DNA from: Chamaesiphon sp. 336R_metabinner_41 | Lineage (GTDB): Bacteria; Cyanobacteriota; Cyanobacteriia; Cyanobacteriales; Chamaesiphonaceae | NCBI GenBank assembly: GCA_025359915.1 | Contig: JANYDE010000072.1 | Coordinates: forward strand, 1-61,585 | Reading direction: 5' to 3' | DNA: 61,585 nt | In this document: in pieces, positions 25,459 through 55,893 of the stretch | Position numbering within the stretch: the stretch's first letter is position 1 | How the letters are laid out: each line of letters starts with the position of its first letter | Translations under genes and position numbers: made by a program | The notes under the pieces: model-generated | Database searches by the model: none | The model's input: the letters and a program-made list of their open reading frames with translations, nothing else | What the model was told of the DNA's origin: nothing

Positions 25459-25803
25459 TTAACTAGCCTGTGCTAATCTACCAGCGATCTCTACGTTAAT
25501 CTTGAGCATCTCTAGTTTGCTCAATCGATCAAGCATATCAACCACTTGCTTAAAGTCCGCATCATTATCAGAACTCTCGTTTAACATTTTCATCAACTCC
25601 CATTCAGCAATTGCCAATGTACTGGCAATCTTTTTAATGTTTTTGGTATCAGCAGTTGTTTTCGCTGATTCCCAAGAGTTGAGAGTAGCATGAGTCACAC
25701 CAATCCTTCTGGCAAATTCCCGTTGACTCCACCCACGCTCTTGGCGAGTTTGTTTCAAAAAATTAGCTAAAACGCGACGTTGTTTATCTTCCGATGTGTT
25801 CAT
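25459..25803 (-). CDS. Cro/CI-type (XRE) phage repressor
   Basis: This 114-residue protein has a helix-turn-helix of the XRE family at residues 14-68 (LKQTRQERGWSQREFARRIGVTHATLNSWE). The C-terminus is helical and could dimerise. It is transcribed away from the early operon, with a 182-base divergent region that holds a palindrome (25881-25918) and a near-consensus early promoter. It is the likely lysogeny repressor. No peptidase domain is present, so RecA-driven self-cleavage is not expected. Confidence 0.8.
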   Translation of the reverse strand: MNTSEDKQRRVLANFLKQTRQERGWSQREFARRIGVTHATLNSWESAKTTADTKNIKKIASTLAIAEWELMKMLNESSDNDADFKQVVDMLDRLSKLEMLKINVEIAGRLAQAS

Positions 25804-29072: not shown

Positions 29073-31265
29073 ATGTACGCATCTATCGCTTCACTAGTCG
29101 GTAAACCTGGATTCCCCGCTTCATACAACGGTACTAAAAAGTATCTTGAATCCAGAGGTTGTACTCGGAGATTAAAACCCAAAGGCAAGGGTGTAGAGTA
29201 TCTAGTCGCATTGGACTTAATCAAAGATATCGATAGTCGTCCTACCCCAACCAAGAATTACTATTCAGTCGAAATCCTATTCGAGAAGCTAGCAGGTAAG
29301 CCAGGTATCCCTCAGACGATATCAGGACTGCGAAGGAGGATCAAAGCCGAGGATTGGGAAAACCGTAAGCGTGAGGGCAAAGGTGGTGGGCTAGAGTATT
29401 TAGCACCTAAAGATCTGTTCATTGAAAAGCCCAAACTATCCCTAGTTCCAGAGATTCAATTACCAGCTCCAGTTGATATTACCGTTGGAGCTGTCCGCAA
29501 ATCATATCGCCTCGAAATTGTCACTCAATGCGATAAATGGTGCGACGACAACAACATCGAAATTGGACGGCGCGAAGGTGAATCTTACTGGACTGGAGTA
29601 GACAAATTTTGTACTCAATATAACCAAGAGAATCCAGATAAAAAGCTGCATACCAACACCGTCGCTAGATGGTGGCAGATGGCAATTCAGAAAGGTTTAC
29701 CTGCGAATTTGGCAGGCAAACATGGTCAGCACTTAATTGGCAAAACGCTCATCGACAAACAGCCAGAAGTTGCTAGAACGGTGATTGCGATGATCCTCGA
29801 TCGACCATCACATACAATGACTCAGCTCAAGTATGAATTCCGTCACAGAGAAGATATCAAAATACCCAGCTATCAAACAGTTGTTCGTTACCGCAATGCC
29901 TGGAAAGTAAACAATGCGGCGTCTTATTGCGAAATGTACGAAGGCATCAGTGCCTTTAATAGTCGAAGGCGTCCTGCCAATGGTAGTCAAAATATTGAGA
30001 TGGATTATGCAAACCAGAAATGGGAGATGGATGGCACCAAGGTAGATGTGATTTGTGCTGATGGTAAACGTTACACGATTATGGTTTTGATTGACTGCTT
30101 TAGCCGTAAATTTGCCTATGAGATTGTATTGAGAGCTAATGCTGATGCAGCATACGGACGTACTCTGTTCAAGGGATTGATGGAATTGGGAATGCCTGAA
30201 ATCATCAGCACTGATAACGGTACTGAATACAAAAATGAGCAGGGTATTGATGCTACTCGCAACTTGAAGATTCAGATGAAATTCTGTAATCCTCGCTGTC
30301 CTTGGGAGAAACCGTTTGTTGAGCGGGTACATGGAACAATCGGCACCAAATTACTGGAAACTTTACCAGGTGCGATCGGTAATAGTGTTGCCGCAAAAAA
30401 ACGCCTAGATGAAACACGACTCAAAGATGGGGATAGAATTACCGTCGAACAGTTGGACACCCATCTCAAAGCCTTTCAAGCTGCTTACCACTCTGAAAAA
30501 CAAGAAGGCGTTGGTATGTCCCCTAACGAAAAGTGGGCATCATCTGACCATGCCAATCACCCGATTAGACGCTTCGATCCGATCGAGGATGCGGAAGCCC
30601 TACAGCTCCTCCTTAGCAAAAAGACCAAGATTCGCACGATTCAGAAGAAAGGGATTAAGTGGGATAAACAATGGTACTACGACAAAGAAGGTGATTGGTC
30701 GATCAAGATTGACTCTGATGTCTCGGTGCAAGCCACTGATGATGACGATCTAATTCGCGTCTACACCCTCGACAAAAAAGAGCTACTATTCATCGCTCGT
30801 TCTGACAAATCATACAGTTTTGAAGACCGTAGAGAAGCGGTAGGAAATGCCAAACGGAGATCTGGAATCGATCGATCTCAAGGCAAGAAAGTTTATCGCA
30901 AGGCACGGAAGGAAACCAAAATCTACACCTATCCAGAGATGCACACCGTTGATAATGTCGTTGCCTTTGAAGCGCGGGGCAATGTAGCTGATGAAATCCT
31001 TGCAACCTCGCACAGTGCGATCGAGAAGATCAATGCGGACAAATTAGCAGCTCAACAACAGCAAGCTAAACGCGATCGAGAGCAAACCATACTTCGCGAA
31101 GACACCTTCTACAACAAGATGGAAGGAGTTTATCTCTCGATCGAAGCCAAGACAGCTACTGAGAAAGAGATCGAGTGGTTCAACTTCCAACTGGAAAATA
31201 ATCCAATCGGTCGATCGACCTTGGAAAACATTCTTGACAGTCTAGACGCGCAAGCTTCGGCTTAA
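29073..31265 (+). CDS. MuA-type DDE transposase
   Basis: This 730-residue transposase cuts and joins the phage ends and drives integration and replicative transposition. The ATG at 29073 is chosen because two Mu-type DNA-binding repeats follow it: residues 3-48 (IASLVGKPGFPASYNGTKKY) and 62-113 (EKLAGKPGIPQTISGLRRRI). The RNase H-like core has Asp320 (WEMDG), Asp381 (ISTDNGTEY) and Glu417 (FVERVHGT). A beta-barrel domain and a charged helical tail (about residues 640-700), expected to contact the ATPase, follow. Length is near Mu A (663 residues). An ATPase gene follows downstream after a regulator gene. Confidence 0.93.
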   Translation: MYASIASLVGKPGFPASYNGTKKYLESRGCTRRLKPKGKGVEYLVALDLIKDIDSRPTPTKNYYSVEILFEKLAGKPGIPQTISGLRRRIKAEDWENRKREGKGGGLEYLAPKDLFIEKPKLSLVPEIQLPAPVDITVGAVRKSYRLEIVTQCDKWCDDNNIEIGRREGESYWTGVDKFCTQYNQENPDKKLHTNTVARWWQMAIQKGLPANLAGKHGQHLIGKTLIDKQPEVARTVIAMILDRPSHTMTQLKYEFRHREDIKIPSYQTVVRYRNAWKVNNAASYCEMYEGISAFNSRRRPANGSQNIEMDYANQKWEMDGTKVDVICADGKRYTIMVLIDCFSRKFAYEIVLRANADAAYGRTLFKGLMELGMPEIISTDNGTEYKNEQGIDATRNLKIQMKFCNPRCPWEKPFVERVHGTIGTKLLETLPGAIGNSVAAKKRLDETRLKDGDRITVEQLDTHLKAFQAAYHSEKQEGVGMSPNEKWASSDHANHPIRRFDPIEDAEALQLLLSKKTKIRTIQKKGIKWDKQWYYDKEGDWSIKIDSDVSVQATDDDDLIRVYTLDKKELLFIARSDKSYSFEDRREAVGNAKRRSGIDRSQGKKVYRKARKETKIYTYPEMHTVDNVVAFEARGNVADEILATSHSAIEKINADKLAAQQQQAKRDREQTILREDTFYNKMEGVYLSIEAKTATEKEIEWFNFQLENNPIGRSTLENILDSLDAQASA
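31008..31020. repeat. TCGCA-YNR-TGCGA palindrome, transposase copy
   Basis: TCGCACAGTGCGA lies near the 3' end of the transposase gene. Confidence 0.7.
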
Positions 31266-31417: not shown

Positions 31418-32185
31418 ATGGCTCAATTAGCAAATCATGAACTACCACAATCGATTATCAAAGAGTTACAAATTGATTCCGAAGGCAAGGGGTTCGTTAC
31501 TCGTCGCGGACTGGCTCGCATGTGTGGGAAAAGCCACCCTACGATTCAGCGGCTTCTAGAAAATATCGCCAAAGGTAGTGGAACGTGTACATCAAGTAAA
31601 TCGCTCGAATCTATTGTCGGACAAAGCTTTGAGGGTGGCTCATACTTGCCAGATTATGTTACAGCGGCGATTATTCAGCATTATGCGGTCAGTGGCTCTG
31701 AAAAAGCATTGGAATCCTTGTTAATCTTCTCTGCGATCGGGCTTCGTACCACCATTCAAAGCTTGCTAGGTTGGAAACCAAATCCCAAACGTAAGCTAAC
31801 TCCAGAAGAAATCATTGAGCTGTGCTGCTTGCCAGTACCAACTACTTGGCAGCGTCGCTTTCCTGAAGAATACTACGAACACTTATCACGTTTGACGGGC
31901 TTGATTCTCCAAGGAGCCGAACGACCTGGGCTGTGGGCTGCATTAACCAAAGAATTGGTTTACGACTATCTACCCACTGGCATCTATACCGAAATCAAAC
32001 GGTGCAGGGAATTAACTGGGTGCTACGAAAAGCTGCATTAATACCTATCCACCGACGGGATTCAAATTCTTGAAGCACATCAGCAAAAGGTCTTGCACCA
32101 CATGCAGGGAGCCGCAACTCTCGACCAGCTTCGCGTCGCTCTCACTCAAGCCTGTACCGGACAATACCAACTTGTATTGCTTTAA
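31418..32185 (+). pseudogene. P63C-type antirepressor regulator split by an in-frame TAA
   Basis: The frame 31418-32041 encodes 207 residues. An N-terminal helix-turn-helix (VTRRGLARMCGKSHPTIQRLLE, residues 27-50) is followed by the shared GLRTTIQSLLGW element and the start of a P63C domain (RRFPEEYYEHLSRL, RPGLWAALTKELVYDYLPTGI). It stops at TAA 32039-32041 after LH. The same frame then continues for 47 codons (YLSTDGIQILEAHQQKVLHHMQ), matching the rest of a P63C domain, where the stop sits in place of the Gln of H-Q-[WY]-L. A single CAA to TAA change explains it. The shorter product may still act; readthrough is an alternative. Confidence 0.7.
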
Positions 32186-32188
32186 CTC

Positions 32189-32311
32189 ATGTCTGCTCCA
32201 AAGTGCCTACTGCTTGCTGTAGCTCTAATCCTCGTGACCTCACTATGGGCTGCATCTACCATCTACTCGATCGATACCGAAATTAATAAAAATGAAACAA
32301 ATCACGATTAA
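32189..32311 (+). CDS. Possible 40-residue membrane peptide
   Basis: The frame reads MSAPKCLLLAVALILVTSLW and then a polar tail, one membrane segment. It overlaps the ATPase start by 20 bases. The GCATCTACC element before the ATPase lies inside it, so the bases may instead be a leader. Confidence 0.3.
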   Translation: MSAPKCLLLAVALILVTSLWAASTIYSIDTEINKNETNHD

Positions 32312-33020
32312 AACTTCAGCGATCGCTGAAACGCTCCAAATTCTCAACTTCCTCCGCACCCAAGATGGTGAACAAATGGCATGGGTTGTCGGTGCGCCTG
32401 GGAGTGGCAAAACTACCACCGCCGAATATTTAGCTCTCCAGTATCAGGGTGTCTACTATCGGATGCTAACTAATCAAGGTCAATTTGGATTAGTCAAAGG
32501 ACTGCTCAAGTCGATCGATAACAACACTTGCCGCTCTGGGGCTGAGGGGATGGTAAAGCTGATTGGGATGTGTCGGGATAAACAGCTCGCGCTATTTATT
32601 GACGAGGGCGAAAAACTCACCTATACCCACCTGGAAACCCTGCGTGATATTCACGATGGTGCTGGCGTGCCCGTCTTCATCTTCGGTACCAAGATTCACG
32701 ATAACTTGCACGAGCATCCTCAGTTGTGCGATCGAACTCACTTTCACCGCCTCAGCTTACCCACTGTCCAAGATGCCAAGGCAATTTCTAAACGAGTCGG
32801 AACTGAGAAATTCCCCATCTCGATCGCTGATGACCTGCTCGAACTGATCCATCGCAACTCAACTATGCTCCGCCAAATTAAGCGCAGCCTAGCCTACATC
32901 GAAGCTGAAGCCATGTCTAATCAGTGGAGCATTGTAGATGCTGTTACTTGGGGCGATCGTCCGTTGCTGCCTGATTTGTACTCGATGCCAGATGAACGGG
33001 TTCGCACCAAAACAAAATAA
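32292..33020 (+). CDS. MuB-type AAA+ ATPase, transposition target selector
   Basis: This 242-residue ATPase has Walker A GAPGSGKTT (residues 34-42) and Walker B LALFIDEG (Asp104, Glu105), then a FGTK sensor-1-like strand and an arginine-bearing helix. In Mu, MuB binds target DNA, activates the transposase and gives target immunity. Like MuB and TnsC it lacks added domains, but it has no visible N-terminal HTH domain as in Mu B (312 residues). Position near the transposase supports the role. Confidence 0.88.
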   Translation: MKQITIKTSAIAETLQILNFLRTQDGEQMAWVVGAPGSGKTTTAEYLALQYQGVYYRMLTNQGQFGLVKGLLKSIDNNTCRSGAEGMVKLIGMCRDKQLALFIDEGEKLTYTHLETLRDIHDGAGVPVFIFGTKIHDNLHEHPQLCDRTHFHRLSLPTVQDAKAISKRVGTEKFPISIADDLLELIHRNSTMLRQIKRSLAYIEAEAMSNQWSIVDAVTWGDRPLLPDLYSMPDERVRTKTK

Positions 33021-33063: not shown

Positions 33064-33882
33064 ATGTCTCAAATTACAACAACATCAGAGTCTCAATACA
33101 ATTCACCATTTGATGCTATTCGCGGCTATCACGCTGACAGATCGGAATATTGGACGGCACGAGAATTAATGCGCTGGCTGGGGTATACCAGGTGGGAACA
33201 AGGCGAAAAAGCTTTGAATCGAGCCACTAAATCGATGACAAATCAAGGGCATGATATTACATTACAGGTTCATGAAGTCTTGAAGCCGTCAAACCAGCAT
33301 AACAACAAGGTTGTAGAAATCAAGGACTATGAGCTTTCCCGATTTGCTTGCTATACTATCGCGATGAATGCTGACCCTGAGAAGGAAATGGTAGCTCTAG
33401 CGCAAGGCTATTTTGCAGCTAAAACTCGCGAGGCGGAAGTAGCTAAACAAATACCAGTAGCTGAGTTATCTCGACTAGAAATTCTGCAACTGGCATTATC
33501 CAGCGAACAAGAAAAGTTAGCACTTCAAGCACAAATCGAAGCAGATCGACCAGCTACTGAATTAGGTAAAGCGATCGAGAAAGCTGAAAGTAATATTCGA
33601 GTTGGTGATTTTGCGAAAGTAATTGGCACCGGACAAAATCGCTATTTCGAGGAATTGCGTGAGTGCAAAATTATTATGGCAACTGGTACATTACCGTACC
33701 AACGATTCTTGAATGATGGGTATTTTGTTGTGACTGAAGTTGTGGTCAATAACAAAGTATATCCAGTTGCTCTTATTACTCCCAAAGGGCAATCATATCT
33801 AGCTAAACGTCACCAGCAACATCTTCAAGCAGTCTCGATCGAATGTCAGATCGAGACTGCTTTTTCGTCTGCGCTTGTTTAA
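33064..33882 (+). CDS. DinD-like N-terminus with phage antirepressor C-terminal domain
   Basis: Residues 15-125 match the DinD/BRO-type pattern (FDAIRG, EYWTARELMRWLGYTRWEQ, FACYTIAMNADPEKEMVALAQGYF). The last 95 residues match the phage antirepressor C-terminal (KilAC) domain (VGDFAKVIGTGQNRYFEELREC, YFVVTEVVVNNKVYPVALITPKGQ). Such proteins bind and relieve repressors. The last 18 codons are encoded by a 13-base-pair terminator stem and T-run, so the natural stop may have been lost. A GCATCTACT element lies before the start. Confidence 0.8.
   Translation: MSQITTTSESQYNSPFDAIRGYHADRSEYWTARELMRWLGYTRWEQGEKALNRATKSMTNQGHDITLQVHEVLKPSNQHNNKVVEIKDYELSRFACYTIAMNADPEKEMVALAQGYFAAKTREAEVAKQIPVAELSRLEILQLALSSEQEKLALQAQIEADRPATELGKAIEKAESNIRVGDFAKVIGTGQNRYFEELRECKIIMATGTLPYQRFLNDGYFVVTEVVVNNKVYPVALITPKGQSYLAKRHQQHLQAVSIECQIETAFSSALV
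33828..33865 (+). terminator. Terminator overlapping the 3' end of the antirepressor gene
   Basis: A perfect 13-base-pair stem with an eight-base loop and five T residues lies inside the reading frame that ends at 33882. Confidence 0.8.
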
Positions 33883-36806: not shown

Positions 36807-37402
36807 GACAACATCAACCGCAATGGCAGCAAAACGAAATTGATTTCCTAGAAAATTTAATTAACGAATTTCCCAGGATTGAAATTGTCAAACAACTTCA
36901 ATCCTACCAGCGTAAAAACAAATTATTCGTCCGCTCCTACGGTGGCATCAGTGATAAATTACGCAAACTGGGGCACCAGAACGATCTTCAATTAGATCGA
37001 CTCAATAAAAGCCAATTAGCAAAGCTGCTAGGAGTTAAAGTAGAGCGAGTTCAATACTGGTTTAAGAAAGGATTGATATTCACTCCAGGTGCAACACCAA
37101 GTTCGAGTACTATCGTCAAGCTTCGTGACTTTGCAACTTGGGCTAAATCAAATGTAAAGCGACTCCATTCGATCGATAGAGACTTGCTAGCCTATGCAAC
37201 TGGAGATAAAGAACTAGCCGATCGAGCTACTGCACTACGTCCCTATTATTGTCCAGTAATTAACATCACCACTGGCAAGAGATATGCAGGAATAGAAGAT
37301 GCTGCTAAATCTAATTTTATTAGCGGTGGAGCATTGAGCCTTGCTCTCAAACAAGGTCGAAAATGCGGTGGGTTTGAGTGGCGATTTGAGGTAGCAGCAT
37401 AG
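36803..37402 (+). CDS. DNA-binding protein with helix-turn-helix
   Basis: Residues 5-60 look like a Myb-type or related DNA-binding helical bundle (WQQNEIDFLENLINEFPRIEIVKQL). Residues 70-90 (NKSQLAKLLGVKVERVQYWFKKG) look like a MerR-type helix-turn-helix. The last 50 residues (TGKRYAGIEDAAKSNFISGGALSLALKQG) resemble the modular DNA-binding repeats of phage endonucleases. It is coupled to the helicase gene and may help load it. Confidence 0.6.
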   Translation: MRQHQPQWQQNEIDFLENLINEFPRIEIVKQLQSYQRKNKLFVRSYGGISDKLRKLGHQNDLQLDRLNKSQLAKLLGVKVERVQYWFKKGLIFTPGATPSSSTIVKLRDFATWAKSNVKRLHSIDRDLLAYATGDKELADRATALRPYYCPVINITTGKRYAGIEDAAKSNFISGGALSLALKQGRKCGGFEWRFEVAA

Positions 37403-40227
37403 TGGTAAATTTCCGAACTGAAAATCTCATTCCACCGCAAAACATCGAGATTGAAGAAGGTATTCTGGGTGGGATTTTATTAGACCCAGAAGCGATCGGG
37501 CGGGTATTAGAATTACTCACCCCTGAAGCCTTTTACATCCCCGCTCACGCCGAAATCTACCGCGCGGCCCTAGCTCTCAACAGCCAGGGCAAGCCGATCG
37601 ATCTGATGACCATCACCGATTACCTCACCGACCAAAAGCAGTTGGAGAAAATCGGTGGGCAAGCCAAACTAATTCAGCTCCTGGAACGCACCGTGAGCGC
37701 AGTCAACATTGACTCTCTCGCAGTGGTGATTGCGGAGAAATACACCAGGCGGCAATTAATCGCAGCGGGGAATAAAATCACCGCTCAAGGCTACGATACC
37801 GTCAGTAAAATTGAGGAATCACTCGATCGATCCGAACAAGCCATCTACAACATCTCCGCCAATCGATCGGGTACCAAACTCACCACCCTATCCTCAGCTC
37901 TGGTTATCGCTGCTAAAGATATCGACGAACGGCGGACTACTCTCGCCCCGCCAGGGCTAACCTGCGACTTTCTGGATTTGGATGGGATGACTGGTGGTTT
38001 TAGTCGATCGGATTTAATCATTCTTGCTGGCAGGCCGTCAATGGGGAAGTGTGTGGCTTTTCATTCCCAGATTGTTCTAGCAGATGGATCGTTAAAAACT
38101 ATTCAGGAAATTTACAACGATCGCAAGGCAAAGCTATTAACACTAGGAGAGAATTTAAAGATTCAATATACAGAACCTTCTGCTTATATTGATGACGGGG
38201 TAAAACCAACTTTTCGCGTTACAACTTGTCTGGGTAGACAAATCGAAACCACGATAACCCACCCCTTTTTGACAATCGGGGGTTGGAAGCCGTTAAGTGA
38301 AATCCAGGCAGGAACTAAGGTTGCAGTGCCAAGAACACTAGGCACGTTCGGGCATGAAACAGTTAGAGATTGCGAGATTAAAATATTGGGATATCTTTTA
38401 GCGGACGGCTCTTTGTCTGGCGGTCAACCAGGATTTACTAATAGTAACTTAGAGATACAAGCTGATTTTATTGAAGCGGTTGAGTCTTTTAATGATCTTA
38501 GTACTAGAAAATATGATAGCCAAGGCAAAAAAGCACCGACATTTTATGTTACCTACAACCGCCAAACTCTTCTTCAAGAGCGGAAAAAATTCGCTACTCG
38601 CTTGTCCGAAGAAATCAAAAAATCGGGCTTTTCCAATCCAAGAATAGAAAAGATTTTGGAGCTAGATCCAGGAATAGTTTCTCGATGGCGTAAAGCATCT
38701 GGACTTCCCAATCCAATTATTATCGAAAAATTAGTGCATGTTCTAGGAATTGCAATCCAAGATCTACTACCTTCTGGATTGGAATCTATTGCGTGGGAAA
38801 ATCCTTTGACAGCTTGGTTGCGAAAGATTGGACTTTGGGGTAAGACGGCACACAGCAAGAGTATTCCAGATTTTGTATTTAGTCTAGAGCGGCGACAAAT
38901 AGCCCTACTACTAAATCGCTTACTAGCTACAGATGGCTGGATTTGCATACTAGCCGCTGGTCCATGCCAAGTTGGATACTGCACTGTCAACGAAACATTT
39001 GCGAGGCAAATTCAGCATTTATTTTTACGATTTGGGATTATTGCTAAACTCAGATTTCGCAGCGTCAAATATAAAGGCGGCTTGAAATATGCTTGGTCTC
39101 TTGACATAACAGATGCAAAATCTATTCAATGCGTGATTGATGAAATTGGAATTTATGCAAAAGACGAAATGATCAAAAATGTCCGCACGGCTCTTGAACA
39201 AAAGAACTACCAGACAAATCGAGATTTGATTCCAGTAGAAACCTGGGAATTATTGAAATTGGCAAAAGGAAGCGAATCATGGAAATCTCTAGCTACGAGA
39301 GCTGGAATCAAAGGTGCTAGCAACATTCATGTTGGCAAACGTGCTTTTACTCGAAAACGTCTCTCGGTTCTTGTTTCCGTTCTATCCGCATCAGCTCAAA
39401 CAACTGTCTTGCAAAATCTAGCAAGCAGTGATGTTTACTGGGACGAGATTAAGTCAATAGAATATGTTGGTGAACAGCAAGTTTATGACTTGACGATTCC
39501 AGAAACTCACAACTTCATTGCAAATGATATTTGTGTTCACAATACGTCGGCGGGGATGCAGATCGCTCACAACATTGCTCGAAAGCATCAATTACCCGTG
39601 CTGATATTCAGTATGGAGATGTCCAAAGAACAGATCGTCCAGCGGTTTATTGCTTGTGAAGCGGGGGTTGATAGCAATCGACTTCGAGCGGGACGAATTA
39701 GTGATATTGAGTGGAGTAGCGTGCTGGGTTCGATCGATCGAATGAACCAGCTCCCAATCTATATCGATGACACTAGCGATATCAGCGTGGCGGGGATGAG
39801 GGCGCAAGCCAGACGAGCTTGCGCCGAAACGGGTAAACCCTTGGGGCTAATTCTACTCGACTACATCCAGTTGATGGGCAACGGTAATAGCGATAATCGG
39901 GTTGAGGAGCTAGATAAAATTGCGCGTGGGCTAAAAGGGTTGGCAAAAGAATTTACGGTACCTCTAATCGCCTTGTCGCAGCTCAGTAGAGGTGTTGAAT
40001 CCCGTAACGATAAACGCCCGATGATGTCGGACTTGCGATCGAGTGGTGCGATCGAGCAAACAGCCGATATCGTGATTATGCTCTACCGAGAAAGTTACTA
40101 TAATCCCAATTCGATTAACAAGGAGACGGAGTTGATTATTAATAAGAATCGGAATGGTGCAGTTGGAACAGTCAAAATGATGTTTGAACCTGGATTAACC
40201 AAATTCAAAAACATCACTAGGTTTTAG
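37402..40227 (+). CDS. dnaB: Replicative DNA helicase DnaB with intein
   Basis: The 941-residue precursor starts with GTG overlapping the previous stop. Residues 1-150 are the DnaB N-terminal domain (LIPPQNIEIEEGILGGILLD). The RecA-like domain begins at about 180 and its P-loop GRPSMGK is interrupted by an intein (residues 217-714). After the intein come TSAGMQIAHNIARKH, the Walker B LGLILLDYIQLM and the C-terminal motifs (SQLSRGVESR, DLRSSGAIEQ). Without the intein the protein is 443 residues, the normal DnaB length. It would unwind phage DNA in replication. A strong terminator follows. Confidence 0.93.
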   Translation: MVNFRTENLIPPQNIEIEEGILGGILLDPEAIGRVLELLTPEAFYIPAHAEIYRAALALNSQGKPIDLMTITDYLTDQKQLEKIGGQAKLIQLLERTVSAVNIDSLAVVIAEKYTRRQLIAAGNKITAQGYDTVSKIEESLDRSEQAIYNISANRSGTKLTTLSSALVIAAKDIDERRTTLAPPGLTCDFLDLDGMTGGFSRSDLIILAGRPSMGKCVAFHSQIVLADGSLKTIQEIYNDRKAKLLTLGENLKIQYTEPSAYIDDGVKPTFRVTTCLGRQIETTITHPFLTIGGWKPLSEIQAGTKVAVPRTLGTFGHETVRDCEIKILGYLLADGSLSGGQPGFTNSNLEIQADFIEAVESFNDLSTRKYDSQGKKAPTFYVTYNRQTLLQERKKFATRLSEEIKKSGFSNPRIEKILELDPGIVSRWRKASGLPNPIIIEKLVHVLGIAIQDLLPSGLESIAWENPLTAWLRKIGLWGKTAHSKSIPDFVFSLERRQIALLLNRLLATDGWICILAAGPCQVGYCTVNETFARQIQHLFLRFGIIAKLRFRSVKYKGGLKYAWSLDITDAKSIQCVIDEIGIYAKDEMIKNVRTALEQKNYQTNRDLIPVETWELLKLAKGSESWKSLATRAGIKGASNIHVGKRAFTRKRLSVLVSVLSASAQTTVLQNLASSDVYWDEIKSIEYVGEQQVYDLTIPETHNFIANDICVHNTSAGMQIAHNIARKHQLPVLIFSMEMSKEQIVQRFIACEAGVDSNRLRAGRISDIEWSSVLGSIDRMNQLPIYIDDTSDISVAGMRAQARRACAETGKPLGLILLDYIQLMGNGNSDNRVEELDKIARGLKGLAKEFTVPLIALSQLSRGVESRNDKRPMMSDLRSSGAIEQTADIVIMLYRESYYNPNSINKETELIINKNRNGAVGTVKMMFEPGLTKFKNITRF
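38050..39543 (+). mobile_element. Intein in DnaB P-loop with LAGLIDADG endonuclease and HTH insert
   Basis: The intein begins with Cys217 (CVAFHSQIVLADGS) and ends with HN (DICVHN), followed by Thr as the first C-extein residue. Splicing blocks are visible: block B TTCLGRQIETTITHPF and block F VYDLTIPETHNFI. The LAGLIDADG parts are LGYLLADGSL and LLNRLLATDGW. Between them a helix-turn-helix segment is present (SGFSNPRIEKILELDPGIVSRWRKASG), which may add sequence specificity. With both endonuclease motifs present it may still be mobile. Confidence 0.9.
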
Positions 40228-40332: not shown

Positions 40333-40375
40333 GCCCCTCGCGAGTGAGTGCGAACAACACTCGATCTCCAGGGGC
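40333..40375 (+). ncRNA. Structured leader motif, copy 2
   Basis: Outer stem GCCCCT/AGGGGC, then CGCGAG and CTCC, and an inner hairpin GAGTG-CGAACAA-CACTC. A TAATGT -10-like box (40322-40327) lies before it. The stem bases differ from copy 1 while pairing is kept. Confidence 0.7.
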
Positions 40376-40406
40376 AGTAAAACCTAAAAACACTAGGATT
40401 CACATT

Positions 40407-41093
40407 TTGAATAATATCACTTTAGCCGCTCAAAGCGGTAGTTCTCCGTTCGATTCCATAGGTCGAGTCGAAAATGGTTGGGAATTTTGGTTCGCACGAG
40501 AACTGATGCCAATGCTAGGCTATCAACGTTGGGAAAATTTCGCCAGAACGATCCGAAAGGCAATTCGTTCTTGCGAAAATGTAGGAAACTCGGTCACAGA
40601 GAACTTTTGCGTGATACTGCGAAATACAGACGGGCGTAATTCAGAAGACTATCGCCTATCTCGACATGCTTGCTATTTAGTAGCTATGTGCGGCGACCCA
40701 GAAAAGACGGAAATTGCCGCAGCGCAATCATATTTTGCGGTTAAGGTTCAGCAAGCAGAAACGTTGGGCGAGGTGATTGCAATGCTAGTGAAAGATTTAG
40801 TGCAAAGAGAACTCGGCAAACTTCAGCCCCAACCATCAGCACTCGAACAGCGACTAGATCAGCATGAATGCGAGATCGGTCGCATCTTCAAACCAGATGG
40901 TCAGTTCTTCTCAATTAGAGGTTGGGCAAACCATCGCAAAGTTAAAATCAACATCAAAGAAGCCTCGAACTACGGGCGAGTTGCTAGCCGCCTATCAAAA
41001 GAAGCTGGAATTTCTACCGACAAGGTACCAGATCCTCGGTATGGATCAGTTAAGGTCTATCACGAATCAATCCTGATTCAGATTATTCCCTAG
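40407..41093 (+). CDS. DinD-like regulator (cassette 2)
   Basis: The TTG at 40407 is chosen: the surrounding CACATTTTGAATAAT matches the start of the cassette 1 gene, and the longer frame from 40344 begins inside the leader stem. The 228-residue protein has a DinD/BRO-type N-terminus (SPFDSIGRVENGWEFWFAREL, MLGYQRWENFA) and a C-terminal DNA-binding part (SIRGWANHRKVKINIKEASNYG). It is unrelated in sequence to cassette 1 but shares its leader and start context. It has its own terminator, so it is a free-standing unit between dnaB and the portal gene. Confidence 0.7.
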   Translation: MNNITLAAQSGSSPFDSIGRVENGWEFWFARELMPMLGYQRWENFARTIRKAIRSCENVGNSVTENFCVILRNTDGRNSEDYRLSRHACYLVAMCGDPEKTEIAAAQSYFAVKVQQAETLGEVIAMLVKDLVQRELGKLQPQPSALEQRLDQHECEIGRIFKPDGQFFSIRGWANHRKVKINIKEASNYGRVASRLSKEAGISTDKVPDPRYGSVKVYHESILIQIIP

Positions 41094-43696: not shown

Positions 43697-44446
43697 GTGA
43701 TTGAGTTTATCTTCGATCGAGCTATACAACGTTACCGTTATAAAGATAGTGGTAAGTTCGTAGGGGCAAAAGCGATCGAGAATTTAACCATCAAAGCGAT
43801 CGTTCAAGTCGAGGGTGATATTACCACGATTACCAATCTATTAATTGAAGGTAAAATCACCGTTGGCACCTGGGAAGACACTACCAAATCAGCTCTCAAA
43901 AATCTCCATACCTGGAATTATCTTTTAGGAGTTGGTGGTGAAAAGCAGATGTCCCAATCTGATTATGGATCCTTAGGGCAGAAGATCAAGCAGGAATATA
44001 AATACTTGAGAGGGCTAGCTCAAGAGTTAGTCGAGGGCAAAGTTACCGAAGCTCAATTACGAGCGCGGATGGCTCAATATGCCGCCAGTGGAGGGACAAC
44101 TCATGAACTAGGACGCGCCAAATCTCACCAAAAGGCTGGTTACTTTTGGGAGAAAAGAATCAGGACTAAACTCAATTCCTGCGAGTCCTGTTATCGCTAT
44201 GCCGAAATGCTCTGGCAACCGATCGCGACTCTTCCTGAAGCTGGACAAAAATGCGAGTGCCGATCTAATTGTGGCTGCTATAAAGTCTTCTCTCGGAATT
44301 TAACTAAACCTGGAGATTCGATTCTAGAGCAAGGATTTGGCTGGCTAGGCAAATTATCAATTAGAAAGTATGGTATTCGACAAACAGAAACAATTAGATT
44401 TATTCGATCTATATCAAACAGATCGATCGATTCGACTAAGAAATAA
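43697..44446 (+). CDS. Mu F-like / SPP1 gp7-like head morphogenesis protein
   Basis: This 249-residue protein starts with GTG right after the previous stop. The C-terminal part has the F-like zinc-type signature: helical YLRGLAQELVEGKVTEAQLRARM, then KLNSCESCYRYAEMLWQPIATLP and KCECRSNCGC. Mu gpF and SPP1 gp7 are minor capsid proteins bound near the portal that help DNA ejection. The N-terminal part is short for a Mu F protein. Its last 77 bases overlap the sigma factor start. Confidence 0.78.
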   Translation: MIEFIFDRAIQRYRYKDSGKFVGAKAIENLTIKAIVQVEGDITTITNLLIEGKITVGTWEDTTKSALKNLHTWNYLLGVGGEKQMSQSDYGSLGQKIKQEYKYLRGLAQELVEGKVTEAQLRARMAQYAASGGTTHELGRAKSHQKAGYFWEKRIRTKLNSCESCYRYAEMLWQPIATLPEAGQKCECRSNCGCYKVFSRNLTKPGDSILEQGFGWLGKLSIRKYGIRQTETIRFIRSISNRSIDSTKK

Positions 44447-45128
44447 AATTGCAGTTGCTAATCAGGGACTAGTGAGACACATTGCTCACCGACTAGTTAA
44501 ACAACTAAGAAATGTTGACTTTGACGATCTATTTCAGGTTGGTTTTATTGGGCTGGTTAAATCGATCGAGAAGTATAAACCTCAGATGAATACACATTTT
44601 TCTAGCTATGCAATCCCATTTATTAGGGGATCTATGCTTCACTATCTTAGAGACAAACACGACACTATTAGGTTAGGGCGAGGCGTGTCTAATTTCATTG
44701 TACCTGCTAGAAAAGTAATTGAAAAATTAACTGTAAAATTAGGTCGCAATCCTACACATTTAGAAATTGCTGAAGGTTTGAAAATAGATCTCGATCGATG
44801 GCTGGAGATTCAACAAAATTTTTATGAATGCAATAATACCAGTCTCAACTTATTAGTTCAGCAAGGCGGAGAGCAAGCTTCTGAATTTCAAGATCTTATA
44901 GTCGATCGATCTCAAATCGATCGATTTGAACTCAACGAAACTTTAATTGATACGCTTAACGCGATCGAGCAATTAGGCTGGAACGAACAGAGGGCGATCG
45001 AGTGTGTCTACCTCCAAAATATGACCAGAAAAGAAACAGCAAGAAAAATTGGTGTTTCTCCGATCACCATTACTAGATACCTGGTAACAGGTCTTCGGAA
45101 ACTTCGAGTGTTGATGTTACAATATTAA
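44370..45128 (+). CDS. Phage-encoded sigma-70 family factor (group 3 type)
   Basis: This 252-residue sigma factor has region 2 (LVRHIAHRLVKQLRNVDFDDLFQVGFIGLVKSIEKYKP, about residues 34-75), a region 3 helix pair (LGRNPTHLEIAEGLKI), and region 4 with helix-turn-helix (MTRKETARKIGVSPITITRYL). Region 1.1 is lacking, as in group 3 factors such as SigF/SigB/WhiG. Placed in the head operon, it probably redirects host RNA polymerase to late phage promoters. It starts inside the F-like gene and ends four bases before leader copy 3. Confidence 0.9.
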   Translation: MVFDKQKQLDLFDLYQTDRSIRLRNKIAVANQGLVRHIAHRLVKQLRNVDFDDLFQVGFIGLVKSIEKYKPQMNTHFSSYAIPFIRGSMLHYLRDKHDTIRLGRGVSNFIVPARKVIEKLTVKLGRNPTHLEIAEGLKIDLDRWLEIQQNFYECNNTSLNLLVQQGGEQASEFQDLIVDRSQIDRFELNETLIDTLNAIEQLGWNEQRAIECVYLQNMTRKETARKIGVSPITITRYLVTGLRKLRVLMLQY

Positions 45129-49866: not shown

Positions 49867-51147
49867 ATGCCAGCAGTCAGTCTTTACCCATATCAACAAA
49901 AATGGCTACTTGATGCGTCACGTTTTAAAATTGCCATGTGGTCACGGCAAATCGGCAAAACTTTTGCTACAGATTTAGGCATTGTTGACAACTGCATGGA
50001 AGCAGCCAGTCAAGGTAGAAAAGAGCGATGGGTGATTCTGTCCCGTGGAGAGCGGCAAGCCAAAGAATCGATCGAAGAACATGTCAAAGTCCATGCCAAA
50101 GCTTACGGCATAACCCTAGACTCCCTAGAGTACGACTACGATGGCGGCGAGACATCCTACAGAGCGATGGATGTCTTTCTGCCTAACGGGAGTAAAATCA
50201 CTGCCTTACCAGCCAATCCAGACACCGCACGGGGATTTTCTGCCAACGTTTACCTAGATGAGTTCGCCTTTCATAAAGATTCTCGCAAAATTTGGCAAGC
50301 ACTATTCCCCGTCATCTCCAAAGGGTGGAAACTTCAGGTCAGTTCTACACCCAACGGCAAGAACAATAAGTTCTACGATCTAATTACCAACAAAGACCCC
50401 CAGTGGTCAAAGCATTTTTGCAATATTCATGAAGCCGTCGCCCAAGGACTCAATCGAGATATTGAAGCCCTTCGCGCTGGATGCGACGACGAGGACACTT
50501 GGCAACAGGAATTTTGCTGTGAGTTTCTGGACGAAGCAACCGCTTGGCTAACCTTCGATCTAATTAACGGAGTTGAGAATGACACCGCAGGACAACCAGA
50601 CAAGTATCTTGGTGGTGATGTCTATATTGGCGTGGATATTGGACGCAAACAGGATTTATGGGCAGCTTGGGTGTGGGAGAAAGTCGGTGATGTCCTCTGG
50701 TGTCGAGAAATTTCCACCCTCAAGAATGCTAGCTTTGCCGAACAGGATGAGCGGCTAAATGACCTGATGGTAAATTATCAAGTCAAACGAGTAGCGATGG
50801 ATGAGACAGGATTGGGCATGAAGCCTGTTGAAGATGCCCAACGTCGGTATGGTAAGTACAAAGTCGAAGGGGTGACTTTCACATCCTCTAGCAAGCAGGA
50901 AATGGCAATCCTGGGTAAACAAGCTTTTGAAGATCGCACCGTGCGAATTCCACTTGGAGATCCTGTCTTGCGATCGGATCTTCACAAGTTACGAAAGATG
51001 GTAACGCCGATGGGGAATGTTCGGTTTGATGCCGATCGAGATAGTTCGGGTCACGCCGATCGAACTTGGGCGTGTTTCCTCGGAATTTATGCAGCAGGGA
51101 ATCAGAAGCGACTGATACTTCCTCAATTCTCGATCGACAGGCACTAG
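49867..51147 (+). CDS. Terminase large subunit, Mu gp28-like
   Basis: This 426-residue motor packages DNA. Visible are the Walker A variant SRQIGKT (residues 26-32), Walker B VYLDE (Asp131, Glu132), the coupling motif VSSTPNG, and the RNase H-like nuclease with Asp257 (GVDIG), MDETGLG, and a late Asp in SSGHADRTWA. It resembles the Mu gp28 group. A TATAAT at about 49850-49856 lies before the start. A TCGCA palindrome lies inside it at 50934. Its stop overlaps the stop of the SWIM gene on the other strand. Confidence 0.9.
   Translation: MPAVSLYPYQQKWLLDASRFKIAMWSRQIGKTFATDLGIVDNCMEAASQGRKERWVILSRGERQAKESIEEHVKVHAKAYGITLDSLEYDYDGGETSYRAMDVFLPNGSKITALPANPDTARGFSANVYLDEFAFHKDSRKIWQALFPVISKGWKLQVSSTPNGKNNKFYDLITNKDPQWSKHFCNIHEAVAQGLNRDIEALRAGCDDEDTWQQEFCCEFLDEATAWLTFDLINGVENDTAGQPDKYLGGDVYIGVDIGRKQDLWAAWVWEKVGDVLWCREISTLKNASFAEQDERLNDLMVNYQVKRVAMDETGLGMKPVEDAQRRYGKYKVEGVTFTSSSKQEMAILGKQAFEDRTVRIPLGDPVLRSDLHKLRKMVTPMGNVRFDADRDSSGHADRTWACFLGIYAAGNQKRLILPQFSIDRH
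50934..50946. repeat. TCGCA-YNR-TGCGA palindrome (one of nine)
   Basis: TCGCACCGTGCGA lies within the large terminase gene. Other copies start at 2861, 10124, 19834, 26201, 31008, 35242, 40242 and 45981. None is seen in the host flank. Confidence 0.7.
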
Positions 51148-52276: not shown

Positions 52277-52738
52277 TTAATCGATCGATATTAAAGCCCC
52301 TGGTGGCTGAGATGGTTGATGCTCGATCGACAGTCGCCAGACCACCGACAATCGATCGTCCTTAATTATCCCAGATTGGGTCAGGCTATCGAGTATAGCC
52401 CCGCTAATATTATCTAAATCCCCGCGCTGTTTGCCCCCGATGATGATGGAAATTTCGCAGCGTTCGATCGGTTCCAGGGGTGGGGATTGGGTTTGAAGTT
52501 CGCGGATAGCTGATTCTTTCCACTCCCGATATTTGGTAGGGAGATAGGCGTGTCCCTTACTCAGTCTAGGACGCGCTTTGGGGCTGATTTTTCCGGTTAG
52601 GTGGTATTTCATTGTGAATTCAAGATATTTTTGAATTAACTTAGTTTTTAATTCCAAATATGTGTCTTTAGCTATCGCCTTTAACTGCTTCTCTAAGTAT
52701 ATTTTATACAAAGAATTGTGGAAATCAATCTCGGTCAT
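52277..52738 (-). CDS. RusA-type Holliday junction resolvase
   Basis: This 153-residue protein has RusA-family features: KISPKARPRLSKGHAYLPTKYREWK in the N-terminal half and the catalytic GDLDNISGAILDSLTQSGIIKDDRL with paired Asp residues. RusA cuts four-way junctions and branched DNA before packaging. The ATG at 52738 overlaps the previous stop (TAATG); an inner Met would give a more standard 110-120 residues. Confidence 0.82.
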   Translation of the reverse strand: MTEIDFHNSLYKIYLEKQLKAIAKDTYLELKTKLIQKYLEFTMKYHLTGKISPKARPRLSKGHAYLPTKYREWKESAIRELQTQSPPLEPIERCEISIIIGGKQRGDLDNISGAILDSLTQSGIIKDDRLSVVWRLSIEHQPSQPPGALISID

Positions 52739-53667
52739 TACTTACTACCTCCGATCGATCCCTTTTTACCAAAGCCTAATCCCTTGTTCGATGTTCCTCC
52801 TAGTTGCCTGCGTTGCAAAGCCGCTTCTAGTGCTGCTATTGCCTCTAGATGTCGATCGCTCTCAAAGGCTGTATAGTGCAAATCTTCTACCAGTCCAGTT
52901 AGTTTCGATTCAACTCGATCATTTATTTCTTCAAGAATTTGTGCATCAGTTAGATTTCTATCGCCAAATACTTCTTGCAAATAGAACGACATTTCCGCGT
53001 CTGGATTCTCGAACTTCTGACGATTCACTTCTTTCGATTTAGCGATTGCTTCTGGGAGTGCTGCTAGCTCGATCGGATATTTAATTATCGACATCAAATT
53101 CTTTCCTGCATCCAGACAGAAGAATACTTCTTTGAATATTGGATCGATGCTATCCATTATTTCGGCGAATCGCTCTTTTGTGACATGAACATCCTCGCAA
53201 CCATTTGGATTGTCTAGTTCTCGCTGTTTCGGAACCCACATATATCCAGCGAGACACATTACCTGCTCTAGGTTTAGATCTTTTACTGCTTTAGGCTGAA
53301 CTGGCTGATTATAACCAAGCTCAGTCTTTATCCAAGTTCGGGCACCAATTGCAGAGAAAGCTAAGTCTACTAATTCCGCTTGCTTGGATCGATATTTCTC
53401 TTCACACTTGTAGGCATAGTATTTTGCAAAAATTGCTAGCTCAATATCTGTAATACGATTGCCCAAGTGCTCCCCACCCTTAAACCCAATTTCAGCAAGG
53501 TATTCAGCGTAACTACGGCTCATCTGCTCCCCACGACAATTTCTGTCGATGTTTTTTCGATCAACTCCTAGCAAACGAGCAACTCCACGATGACTAGCTG
53601 AAGTCGTTCCATCTGGGTGAATTTCAAACTCTTTCTTTATATCGTCAGCGATATGTATAATAGACAT
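52738..53667 (-). CDS. Antirepressor-like DNA-binding regulator (leader copy 5)
   Basis: This 309-residue protein has the N-terminal helix-turn-helix (TSASHRGVARLLGVDRKNIDRN, residues 20-42), YLAEIGFKGGEHL, and the shared LVDLAFSAIGARTWIKTELGY part. The last 130 residues are helical and specific to it, with a glycine/lysine-rich end. It relates to 31418 and 51457. It is the first gene of an operon with RusA. TATAAT plus the structured leader precede it. Confidence 0.68.
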   Translation of the reverse strand: MSIIHIADDIKKEFEIHPDGTTSASHRGVARLLGVDRKNIDRNCRGEQMSRSYAEYLAEIGFKGGEHLGNRITDIELAIFAKYYAYKCEEKYRSKQAELVDLAFSAIGARTWIKTELGYNQPVQPKAVKDLNLEQVMCLAGYMWVPKQRELDNPNGCEDVHVTKERFAEIMDSIDPIFKEVFFCLDAGKNLMSIIKYPIELAALPEAIAKSKEVNRQKFENPDAEMSFYLQEVFGDRNLTDAQILEEINDRVESKLTGLVEDLHYTAFESDRHLEAIAALEAALQRRQLGGTSNKGLGFGKKGSIGGSK

Positions 53668-53690
53668 GTTGACCTTTCATAGAGGTTAAT

Positions 53691-53734
53691 CCCCGTGGGG
53701 CTTTCGGTGTTCTCGCACCAAGTCCGCGACGGGG
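53691..53734 (-). ncRNA. Structured leader motif, copy 5
   Basis: On the minus strand: outer stem CCCCGT/ACGGGG, then CGCGG with CC pairing, inner hairpin GGTG-CGAGAA-CACC. It differs from copy 4 at several paired positions that keep pairing. TATAAT lies at 53750-53755. Confidence 0.7.
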
Positions 53735-53749
53735 TATAAATACTCTTCT

Positions 53750-53755
53750 ATTATA
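53750..53755 (-). promoter_or_regulatory. -10 box before leader copy 5
   Basis: TATAAT on the minus strand within TGATATAATA, about 16 bases before the leader stem. Confidence 0.55.
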
Positions 53756-53918
53756 TCACAATCATTATTTTCAACCTGATTGATTTAGCTGAGTTAGTGT
53801 TAGTTAAAAAGTCGTGTGTATTATGGTTGTAGAATTTTCATAGTTTTACACTACTTGGTTAGTCTTGCGAAATGAAAATAGGCGACAAGCTATACATTAG
53901 AGTAGACAACGCTTTCAG

Positions 53919-53944
53919 CTACTTACATTATTAGTGGCTAGTGA
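53919..53944 (+). repeat. Internal putative transposase-binding repeat
   Basis: CTACTTACATTATTAGTGGC followed by TAGTGA. It matches the terminal repeat at 54033 at 23 of 26 positions. Confidence 0.6.
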
Positions 53945-54032
53945 AAATTGTAAGGATTGTAATTTGAAAGGCTAGATCCTATATCCCGACTAGTTTTGAG
54001 TAGTCCCCACTCATCCCGCTAACTATTCAGAT

Positions 54033-54058
54033 CTACTTACATTATTAATGGATAGTCA
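54033..54058 (+). repeat. Terminal putative transposase-binding repeat
   Basis: CTACTTACATTATTAATGGA followed by TAGTCA. It ends in CA, as Mu-type ends do, right where the host helicase frame opens. It lies 114 bases from the internal copy. Confidence 0.6.
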
Positions 54059-55893
54059 CAAGAAACGATCGAATACAGCATTGAAGACACCTACAACGGA
54101 CTATATCAACAGCTTCGCCAGTATCTCGGTAAATCCAGCAAACAAAAATCTCTCAAAACCCTCACCAACACCCTCTGTTCTGCCCGTTATGGCTTGGGTA
54201 ACTATGTTTTGGCTGCCAAAAGCAACAAGAGCCATACAAAGGACTCCAGACCGCCGGAGCTAACCTCAGAGGTTTAATCCGAGTCCTGCTATTCAAACGA
54301 TTTGAATCCAGCGTCTATGCTTTTCAACAGACGATCGATCGGATGATCCTAGCTCACGAACGATTTTTAATCGGACTTGATGGCGGGATTATCCCCGCAG
54401 GGAAAGAATCTCAAGATATTCTCAATGACGATGAAGCTGCTGGAGAAGACGAGTTAGATATCATCGATGCACTGCGATCTGTATCTGGTAAGTATGACAT
54501 TGAAGATTTCAATCGAGCCAAACTCACCAAACATATCGCCCACGATCTGAAGATCCTCAAACCGATTCACCAATTAGTCGCCCCTATCACCCCCGCCCAA
54601 GATGCCAAGCTGCAAACCCTCAAGCAGTGGTTAGCAAAACCCGATATTCTCGGTAAAAAGCAGATTATCTTCACCCAATACGCAGATACAGCCCAATATT
54701 TGTATAACCAAATTACTGCTGGTAGCGATCGAGATGATATCGAAGTTATCCATAGCAATAGCGGTAAAGACAAAGGACGCTTAGTACAGAGATTTGCACC
54801 TAAAGCGAATGATAATTACCAACTCAAACCAGGCGAAACCGAACTCAATACCCTAATTGCTACCGATATCCTCGCCGAAGGACTCAATCTCCAAGATGGA
54901 GACATGATTATTAACTACGATCTGCACTGGAATCCAGTCAAACTAATTCAACGCTTCGGGCGGATCGATCGGATTGGCACAGAGAAAGAAACTATTTATG
55001 GTTATAATTTCCTCCCCGAATTGGGTATCGAAAAAAATCTCAGCTTGAAAGAAAAACTCCAACACCGCATTCAAGAAATTCATGAAACCATCGGGGAAGA
55101 TTCAGCGATTCTCGATAATAGTGAGCAGCTTAATGAAAATGCCATGTACGCCATCTACGAACAATCGCAAGGTAAACAATTAAATTTCTTCGATCGAGAA
55201 TCAACTGAAGTAATCAACTTAACCGATGCTGAAGAAAAGCTCCGACAAATCCAACGGGATGATCCTGATGAGTTCGATCGCATTGTCAACCTACCCAACG
55301 GTATCCGCACCGCCAAACTAGCCCAAGAAACAGGTACATTCGTCTTTTGTGAATCGAGTAACATTAACGACCCCAGCGCGAAGAGATATCCACAGCTATT
55401 TCTACTCGATCGAGATGGTAAAGAAATCAGTCGTGATATTTCCAAGATTCTATCGATTATTACCGCCCAAGAAAACACCCCAACAGCACTATTACTCCAA
55501 ACTCATAATCAAACAGTTACCCAAACCCTCCACAAATTTAGCAAAGAGGTAAAACAGCGTCAATCTGAGCAACGCGATTTTAAACTAACTCCTGCCCAGA
55601 AGTATATTTTGAGAGAACTCGAAAAATTATTTAAAGATGATACGGAAGAACAGCTAAAGTCAACTATTAACGAACTCGTCAAAACCGTAAAATCTATCCA
55701 CAATCCAACAATTTTACGAGAATTAAAAATCATCAAAGATAATGCTTCCACCGGACAGTCATTACTAAGTAAACTATTTTACTTATATCAGCAGTACAAT
55801 CTCAAAACTCAATTGAATTCTGAGCCAGAACCGAAAAATGATTTGTCTATCTCAAATATTGTATGTAGCAGCGCACTCCAAGGTTTTGATTAA
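54056..55893 (+). pseudogene. SNF2-family helicase, C-terminal remnant with frameshift
   Basis: This is the back half of a host SNF2/RapA-like helicase. From 54056 the frame reads SQETIEYSIEDTYNGLYQQL to AAKSNKS, then must shift to continue as PYKGLQTAGANLRGLIRVLL at about 54232; loss of one C there explains it. After that it is open to 55893, with an ATG at 54343. Helicase motifs IIFTQYADTAQYLYN, LIATDILAEGLNLQ and QRFGRIDRIG (V and VI) are present, but the N-terminal ATP-binding half is missing. Phage insertion or later decay inactivated it. The N-terminal part may lie beyond the left phage end. Confidence 0.85.

Follow-up and report, generated by a model that had tools for sequence, protein, structure and literature searches.

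Paired direct repeats at the right end of a Mu-like prophage in Chamaesiphon as probable transposase recognition sites

In a contig of Chamaesiphon sp. (61,585 nucleotides, the whole stretch being referred to as the window), phage genes give way to a host helicase gene at a junction that carries two direct repeats of 26 bases. This raises the question of whether the repeats belong to one end of a transposable phage and, if so, which part of the transposase reads them. Direct reading of the sequence bore out the repeats as described in the first-pass annotation: the inner one at 53919 (CTACTTACATTATTAGTGGCTAGTGA) and the outer one at 54033 (CTACTTACATTATTAATGGATAGTCA) are identical at 23 of 26 bases and start 114 bases apart. 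A repeat search lengthened both to 29 nt at 86% identity, and their consensus, allowing up to three mismatches, occurs twice in the 61,585-base window as compared to 0 of 100 dinucleotide shuffles. The outer repeat had also been said to end in CA at the host boundary at position 54058. However, the phage terminus is at 54060 (...TAGTCACA), and host DNA starts at 54061 with a duplicated AGAAA. A third, weaker repeat proposed near 53850 is not supported, as a weight matrix built from eight sites did not exceed -0.5 bits across 53700-53919. The same matrix gives both right-end repeats 41-43 bits, a score that is circular because the matrix was built from sites including both. With a probability of roughly 0.93, the two repeats represent the R1 and R2 recognition sites in the right end of a transposable, Mu-like prophage. 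The features at this end are:

1 to 54060, no strand: prophage DNA in this contig, the left end being completed on contig C78
53919 to 53946, forward strand: R2, inner right-end site, 114 bp inside R1; its equivalent in the phage of the related genome G004 has the same 114-bp spacing and 3 mismatches
53947 to 54032, no strand: inter-site DNA from R2 to R1, strongly conserved in the alignment of the window phage and the G004 phage
54033 to 54060, forward strand: R1, outer right-end site, reaching the phage terminus; the motif is also present at L003:2415-2442 and at both G004 ends
54061 to 54065, no strand: right copy of the 5-bp target duplication AGAAA, the left copy being L003:2443-2447 read on the minus strand
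54061 to 55893, forward strand: 3' part of the host helicase gene, the 5' part being on contig C78

The other end of the element was located by a junction search of the genome's own DNA, which led to a second place (C78:2416-2442) on a contig of 3,798 bases (C78, locus L003). Read outward, C78 carries CTACTTACATTATTGGTGGCTATTTTAG, 33 bases on TTACTTACATTATTAGTGGATAGTCACA, then TTTCT, and then a partial helicase on the minus strand. In phage orientation, the left boundary consists of host ...CGACTAGAAA followed by TGTGACTATCC, and the right boundary of phage GGATAGTCACA followed by host AGAAACG. The element is bounded by the inverted termini TGTGACTATCC...GGATAGTCACA, with TG...CA in both the window and the G004 element, and each end of the window element holds one motif of about 24 bp twice, with outer and inner copy in the same orientation and spaced 33 bp apart at the left and 114 bp at the right. 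An inverted repeat at the left boundary and a five-base target duplication had been set beforehand as checks of the phage-end reading. The former is present on C78 (TGTGACTATCCACTAATAATGTAAGTAAC), the latter is the AGAAA flanking the element, and neither a missing inverted copy at the left nor a boundary elsewhere turned up. When the starts of the window and of C78 are aligned to the contiguous left arm of the G004 phage, about 77 unsequenced bases remain between them, so that the total length amounts to about 56.6 kb (54,060 plus about 77 plus 2,442 on C78).

The two phage ends sit on different contigs of an assembly that comprises 169 contigs with 3.42% contamination, and C78 might be foreign to the window contig and joined to it by an artefact of the metagenome bin. 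This is highly improbable, as the flanks of the two contigs are halves of one host gene. When the flanks are joined minus one AGAAA, an open frame runs through the junction (...HQYFPKRRLETIEYSIEDTYNG...), and an uninterrupted homologue, 85% identical, is present in G010, a genome from another genus of the family. It aligns to the joined flanks with no gap at the junction and contains a single AGAAA copy. The 5-bp duplication also agrees between the two contigs, and one G004 contig covers both the left end and the tape-measure region without a break and in identical order. Elsewhere the host gene contains an in-frame stop and a one-base deletion, neither of which is present in the G010 relative, indicating that the gene has further decayed or that these are sequencing errors. 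Taken together with two further elements, the other end, the target duplication and the empty site establish the locus as the right end of a transposable prophage.

The interrupted helicase (54061-55893 and L003:2443-3370; L169) has 'HKD+Snf2' as its top PADLOC model (E 2.4e-36, helicase part only), and by eye its intact relative possesses an N-terminal HKD (phospholipase D-like) part. It resembles parts of several defence-related helicases, with 27 families matched, and a defence role is only a lead.

The two further elements were identified among genomes of the family. The motif was sought with up to three mismatches in 11 family genomes, where most matches occurred at the level of a reversed-pattern control. 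The G004 ends were read directly and 10 further loci from the family search were scanned with the weight matrix; among these, paired sites were found in G004 and G002 only. The G004 phage, from the same genus as the window phage, has sites 114 apart on contig C66 and 33 apart on contig C267, a duplication of TTTAG, and a length of about 59 kb if the contigs adjoin (C267 from base 1 to the left end, C66 from the right end to base 49,870). The G002 element has a 33-bp left pair on contig C650, its right end on contig C62 and a duplication of TGAAG. Its right terminus reads CATA and its R2 has degenerated, the best match within 6 bases of the predicted position being 9 of 20, which suggests that R2 may be dispensable or that the G002 copy is dead. 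A MuA or MuB homologue was not found in the G002 assembly, and we regard this element (L041, L056) as dead, non-autonomous or incompletely assembled. The target duplication measures 5 bp in all three elements (AGAAA, TTTAG, TGAAG), and the left pair is spaced by 33 bp at three of three left ends and the right pair by 114 bp at two of three right ends. The three elements occupy unrelated loci, namely the helicase gene, a second locus in G004, and one beside a putative gene which, judged by eye, we take to encode quinolinate phosphoribosyltransferase.

At up to three mismatches, the outer-site pattern was present in one of 388 genomes of the class, its own, the sample being without the other family genomes. 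Five IMG/VR contigs contained one exact motif each, any second site in the DNA scanned scoring 10.8 bits at most, and these were treated as chance. The ends of five distant cyanobacterial elements (G098, G181, G125, G143, G130) were searched as TG...CA plus a 5- or 6-bp duplication; the best candidates matched 17 to 20 of 30 and were near-ties, and none is claimed.

Two features lie just inside the right-end sites:

53748 to 53799, reverse strand: inward promoter-like unit (AATCAGGTT...TGATATAATA), found at 6 of 6 phage ends examined in the three elements
52738 to 53667, reverse strand: inward-read gene at the right end, with no PHROG match at E 0.001 and a Pfam match below cut-off (E 0.056)

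The left-end counterpart of the promoter-like unit is located at L003:2210-2261 on the minus strand, and the units lie just inside the transposase sites; no signal above chance emerged when the right end was scanned for sigma-70 promoters and terminators. The inner repeats R2 and L2 might be operators or other regulatory copies, with the outer terminal sequence alone being used in transposition, and the degenerate R2 of G002, whose 5-bp duplication is intact, would be in line with this. However, inner sites occur at both ends with fixed orientation and distance to the outer site (33 bp in three of three, 114 bp in two of three), and the promoter-like units differ in sequence and sit further inside. 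We therefore consider a purely regulatory role of the inner repeats improbable, and transposase recognition at both sites of each end remains the preferred reading.

The gene faced by the left-end promoter-like unit encodes a Bro-N/anti-repressor (L003:1405-2130). The leaders of the end genes (53664-53750 and L003:2127-2212, both on the minus strand) form similar hairpins with compensating differences by eye; their folding is weak (z -1.63 and -1.67, with 12 of 200 and 11 of 200 shuffles folding as well), and an Rfam search of the window and L003 returned only a tRNA on L003 and no leader match.

The genes expected to act on these ends, together with a candidate regulator, lie in the middle of the element:

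25459 to 25803, reverse strand: helix-turn-helix repressor candidate, an ordinary HTH protein, not Mu c-type
29073 to 31265, forward strand: MuA-type DDE transposase, 730 aa, with two winged helices, a TnsB/MuA-like region and an rve core
32292 to 33020, forward strand: MuB-like AAA ATPase (phrog_296, DNA transposition protein, E 1.4e-24; PF13401, AAA_22, E 3.6e-12)

The start of the transposase is most likely the ATG at 29073, since a relative has an upstream stop. The protein matches the rve core and HTH_Tnp_Mu_1, the match to the Mu C-terminal domain being below cut-off, and the core residues D320, D381 and E417 are unchanged throughout two alignments, one of 10 and one of 19 proteins. In an alignment-based search, relatives shared at most 31% identity (best 80 of 431), and a direct search of IMG/VR with the transposase confirmed no relative. 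The N-terminus contains winged-helix domains in tandem at about aa 1-56 and 61-115, which share 37% identity over 43 residues and each form helices with a strand pair in the AlphaFold model, a model of moderate quality (mean pLDDT 72.3, pTM 0.36). A match to the N-terminal domain of MuA was obtained for the second winged helix (1tns, E 8.3e-4). The first is present only in the window and G004-type (L004) proteins, the other eight of ten aligned proteins starting at the second, and none of 22 viral relatives showed two winged helices when the first 150 residues were inspected by eye, with L165 beginning inside its first. A tblastn search of the window with both winged helices gave no further convincing copy. 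The ATPase gene, which is assigned as MuB-like by its sequence matches, begins 1 kb downstream of the transposase, and the predicted protein is 98% identical in G004. Between the two genes, 31418-32041 encodes a small protein with a P63C domain and weak similarity to the abortive-infection protein BstA.

Structural comparison raised the alternative that the repeats mark the end of a Tn7-like or CRISPR-associated transposon and not of a phage. Residues 136-583 of the transposase model align to TnsB (Z 21.4, rmsd 18.7, 397 residues), and in a Foldseek search TnsB chains of type V-K transposons and Tn7 ranked first, the Mu transpososome being eighth. Repeated terminal sites and 5-bp duplications are known from Tn7-like elements, too. 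However, the element encodes a tape measure, a tail tip, a DnaB helicase, a large terminase and a protein with a weak portal match, one winged helix of the transposase matches the MuA N-terminal domain, and the best PHROG of the transposase is a phage transposase family. A Tn7-like origin of this end is thus scarcely credible, and a Mu-like phage end is retained. Among the window proteins scanned, which were part of the ORFs, no match to TnsC, TniQ/TnsD or Cas genes was seen.

The sites had further been suggested to fit the two DNA-binding repeats of the transposase. A mosaic breakpoint in the protein is compatible with this, but the two repeats are of the Mu I-alpha type, which is the enhancer-binding type. 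The Mu ends are held through I-beta-gamma of six MuA subunits, whose I-alpha domains make contact with the enhancer (PMC3562280). Homology favours the region of about residues 137-300, the putative equivalent of Mu I-beta-gamma, as the end-reading part. When the window and G004 transposases are compared, the winged helices are 91% and 95% identical and the linker 77%, and identity is 37-58% from residue 150 on (730-aa numbering). Differences at fourfold sites number 11 of 53 for the winged helices, 7 of 15 for the linker and 71 of 116 thereafter. The conservation of winged helices and ends as opposed to the diverged body suggests that the transposase body has probably been replaced by recombination, with the winged-helix pair and the ends being kept. 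Such a breakpoint would make the winged-helix pair a candidate end reader, but an enhancer-reading role of the pair, or a diverged body of unchanged specificity, would fit it too. The argument is weakened as the window and G004 phages also share several other stretches at 90-99% identity; over the left 1,347 bases their DNA is 99.6% identical. The I-alpha-type domains are present and duplicated, and no enhancer sequence was identified. That the duplicated I-alpha-type pair and not I-beta-gamma is the end-reading module, perhaps with one winged helix for each half of a 24-bp site, is a tentative and rather unlikely proposal. If it were true, the rest of the transposase would be exchangeable as long as ends and N-terminal pair stay together, and the phage, about 57-59 kb long and with its transposition genes mid-genome, would represent a distinct transposable-phage architecture.

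By analogy with the Mu family, we infer the following course of transposition. Subunits of the phage DDE transposase would bind the outer and inner sites, as the position and conservation of the repeats suggest, and the left and right ends would pair. The CA-ending strand would then be cleaved and transferred to the target DNA at a 5-bp stagger, with the MuB-like ATPase helping in target choice. The unequal spacing (about 3 versus 11 helical turns) may make the left and right ends distinct, as in Mu, and the tandem winged helices may either bind enhancer-like DNA or take part in end binding.

The phage encodes several further proteins. A DnaB helicase (37402-40227) holds an intein with a LAGLIDADG domain and has a 63-66% identical relative in G002; a phage-encoded DnaB is unexpected if replication is by transposition. 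An RNA polymerase sigma factor is encoded at 44370-45128 (phrog_351, E 4.6e-43), and anti-repressor family matches occur in four phage genes (26450-27343, weakly; 33064-33882; 40344-41093; L003:1405-2130).

Compared to known systems, the element resembles Mu and Mu-like phages (saltoviruses) in its MuA-type DDE transposase with an I-alpha-type winged helix, its MuB-like ATPase, the TG...CA ends, the 5-bp duplication, the presence of several sites per end with unlike spacing at the two ends, and insertion at unrelated loci. The target duplication comprises 5 bp in Mu and 6 bp in B3. Phage structural genes (tape measure, tail tip, terminase) are located inside the same ends. Unlike Mu, the window phage has a duplicated I-alpha-type domain, carries a DnaB helicase and has a repressor candidate that is not of the Mu c kind, and it has two sites per end whereas Mu has three (PMC3562280). 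Its transposase gene lies mid-genome, about 32 kb from the left end and 23 kb from the right, whereas that of Mu-like phages is usually near the left end. Among the best 80 of 431 loci, the transposase match was within 6 kb of a contig end in 29 of 38 viral contigs of at least 30 kb (median distance 2.8 kb, largest 16.8 kb), where contig ends need not be phage ends. The transposase also matched 15 annotated phage records, among them Rhodobacter phage RC1 and Shewanella phage vB_SspS_MuM16-1, whose related transposases align with 66% and 50% of the query at 26% identity; these records measure 39.6 and 37.9 kb, and the match is within about 3 kb of a record end. As the usual layout (36-39 kb, transposition genes near the left end) does not apply here, we file the element as a variant of the Mu kind, this layout being a usual feature of Mu-like phages that the mechanism does not require.

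Tn7 ends carry repeated terminal sites. With Tn7 and the type V-K CRISPR-associated transposons, the element shares the TnsB-like region predicted by the model (residues 136-583); it differs from these in its phage structural genes and in the Mu-type winged helices at the N-terminus, outside the TnsB-aligned part.

A literature search, with most subscription journals outside its coverage, turned up neither a Mu-like prophage described from Chamaesiphon nor one with this layout. Exact ends, target duplications and the empty site are now known for a Mu-like prophage of a cyanobacterium, and a minimal transposon could be built from these ends for a host with few genetic tools. The replacement of the transposase body, with ends and N-terminal winged helices kept, poses the question which part reads the ends. 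Section 3.8 of PMC8705779 describes the length of 37-39 kb and the synteny of transposable phages as remarkably conserved; as compared to this section, the element of about 56.6 kb indicates that both can be broken.
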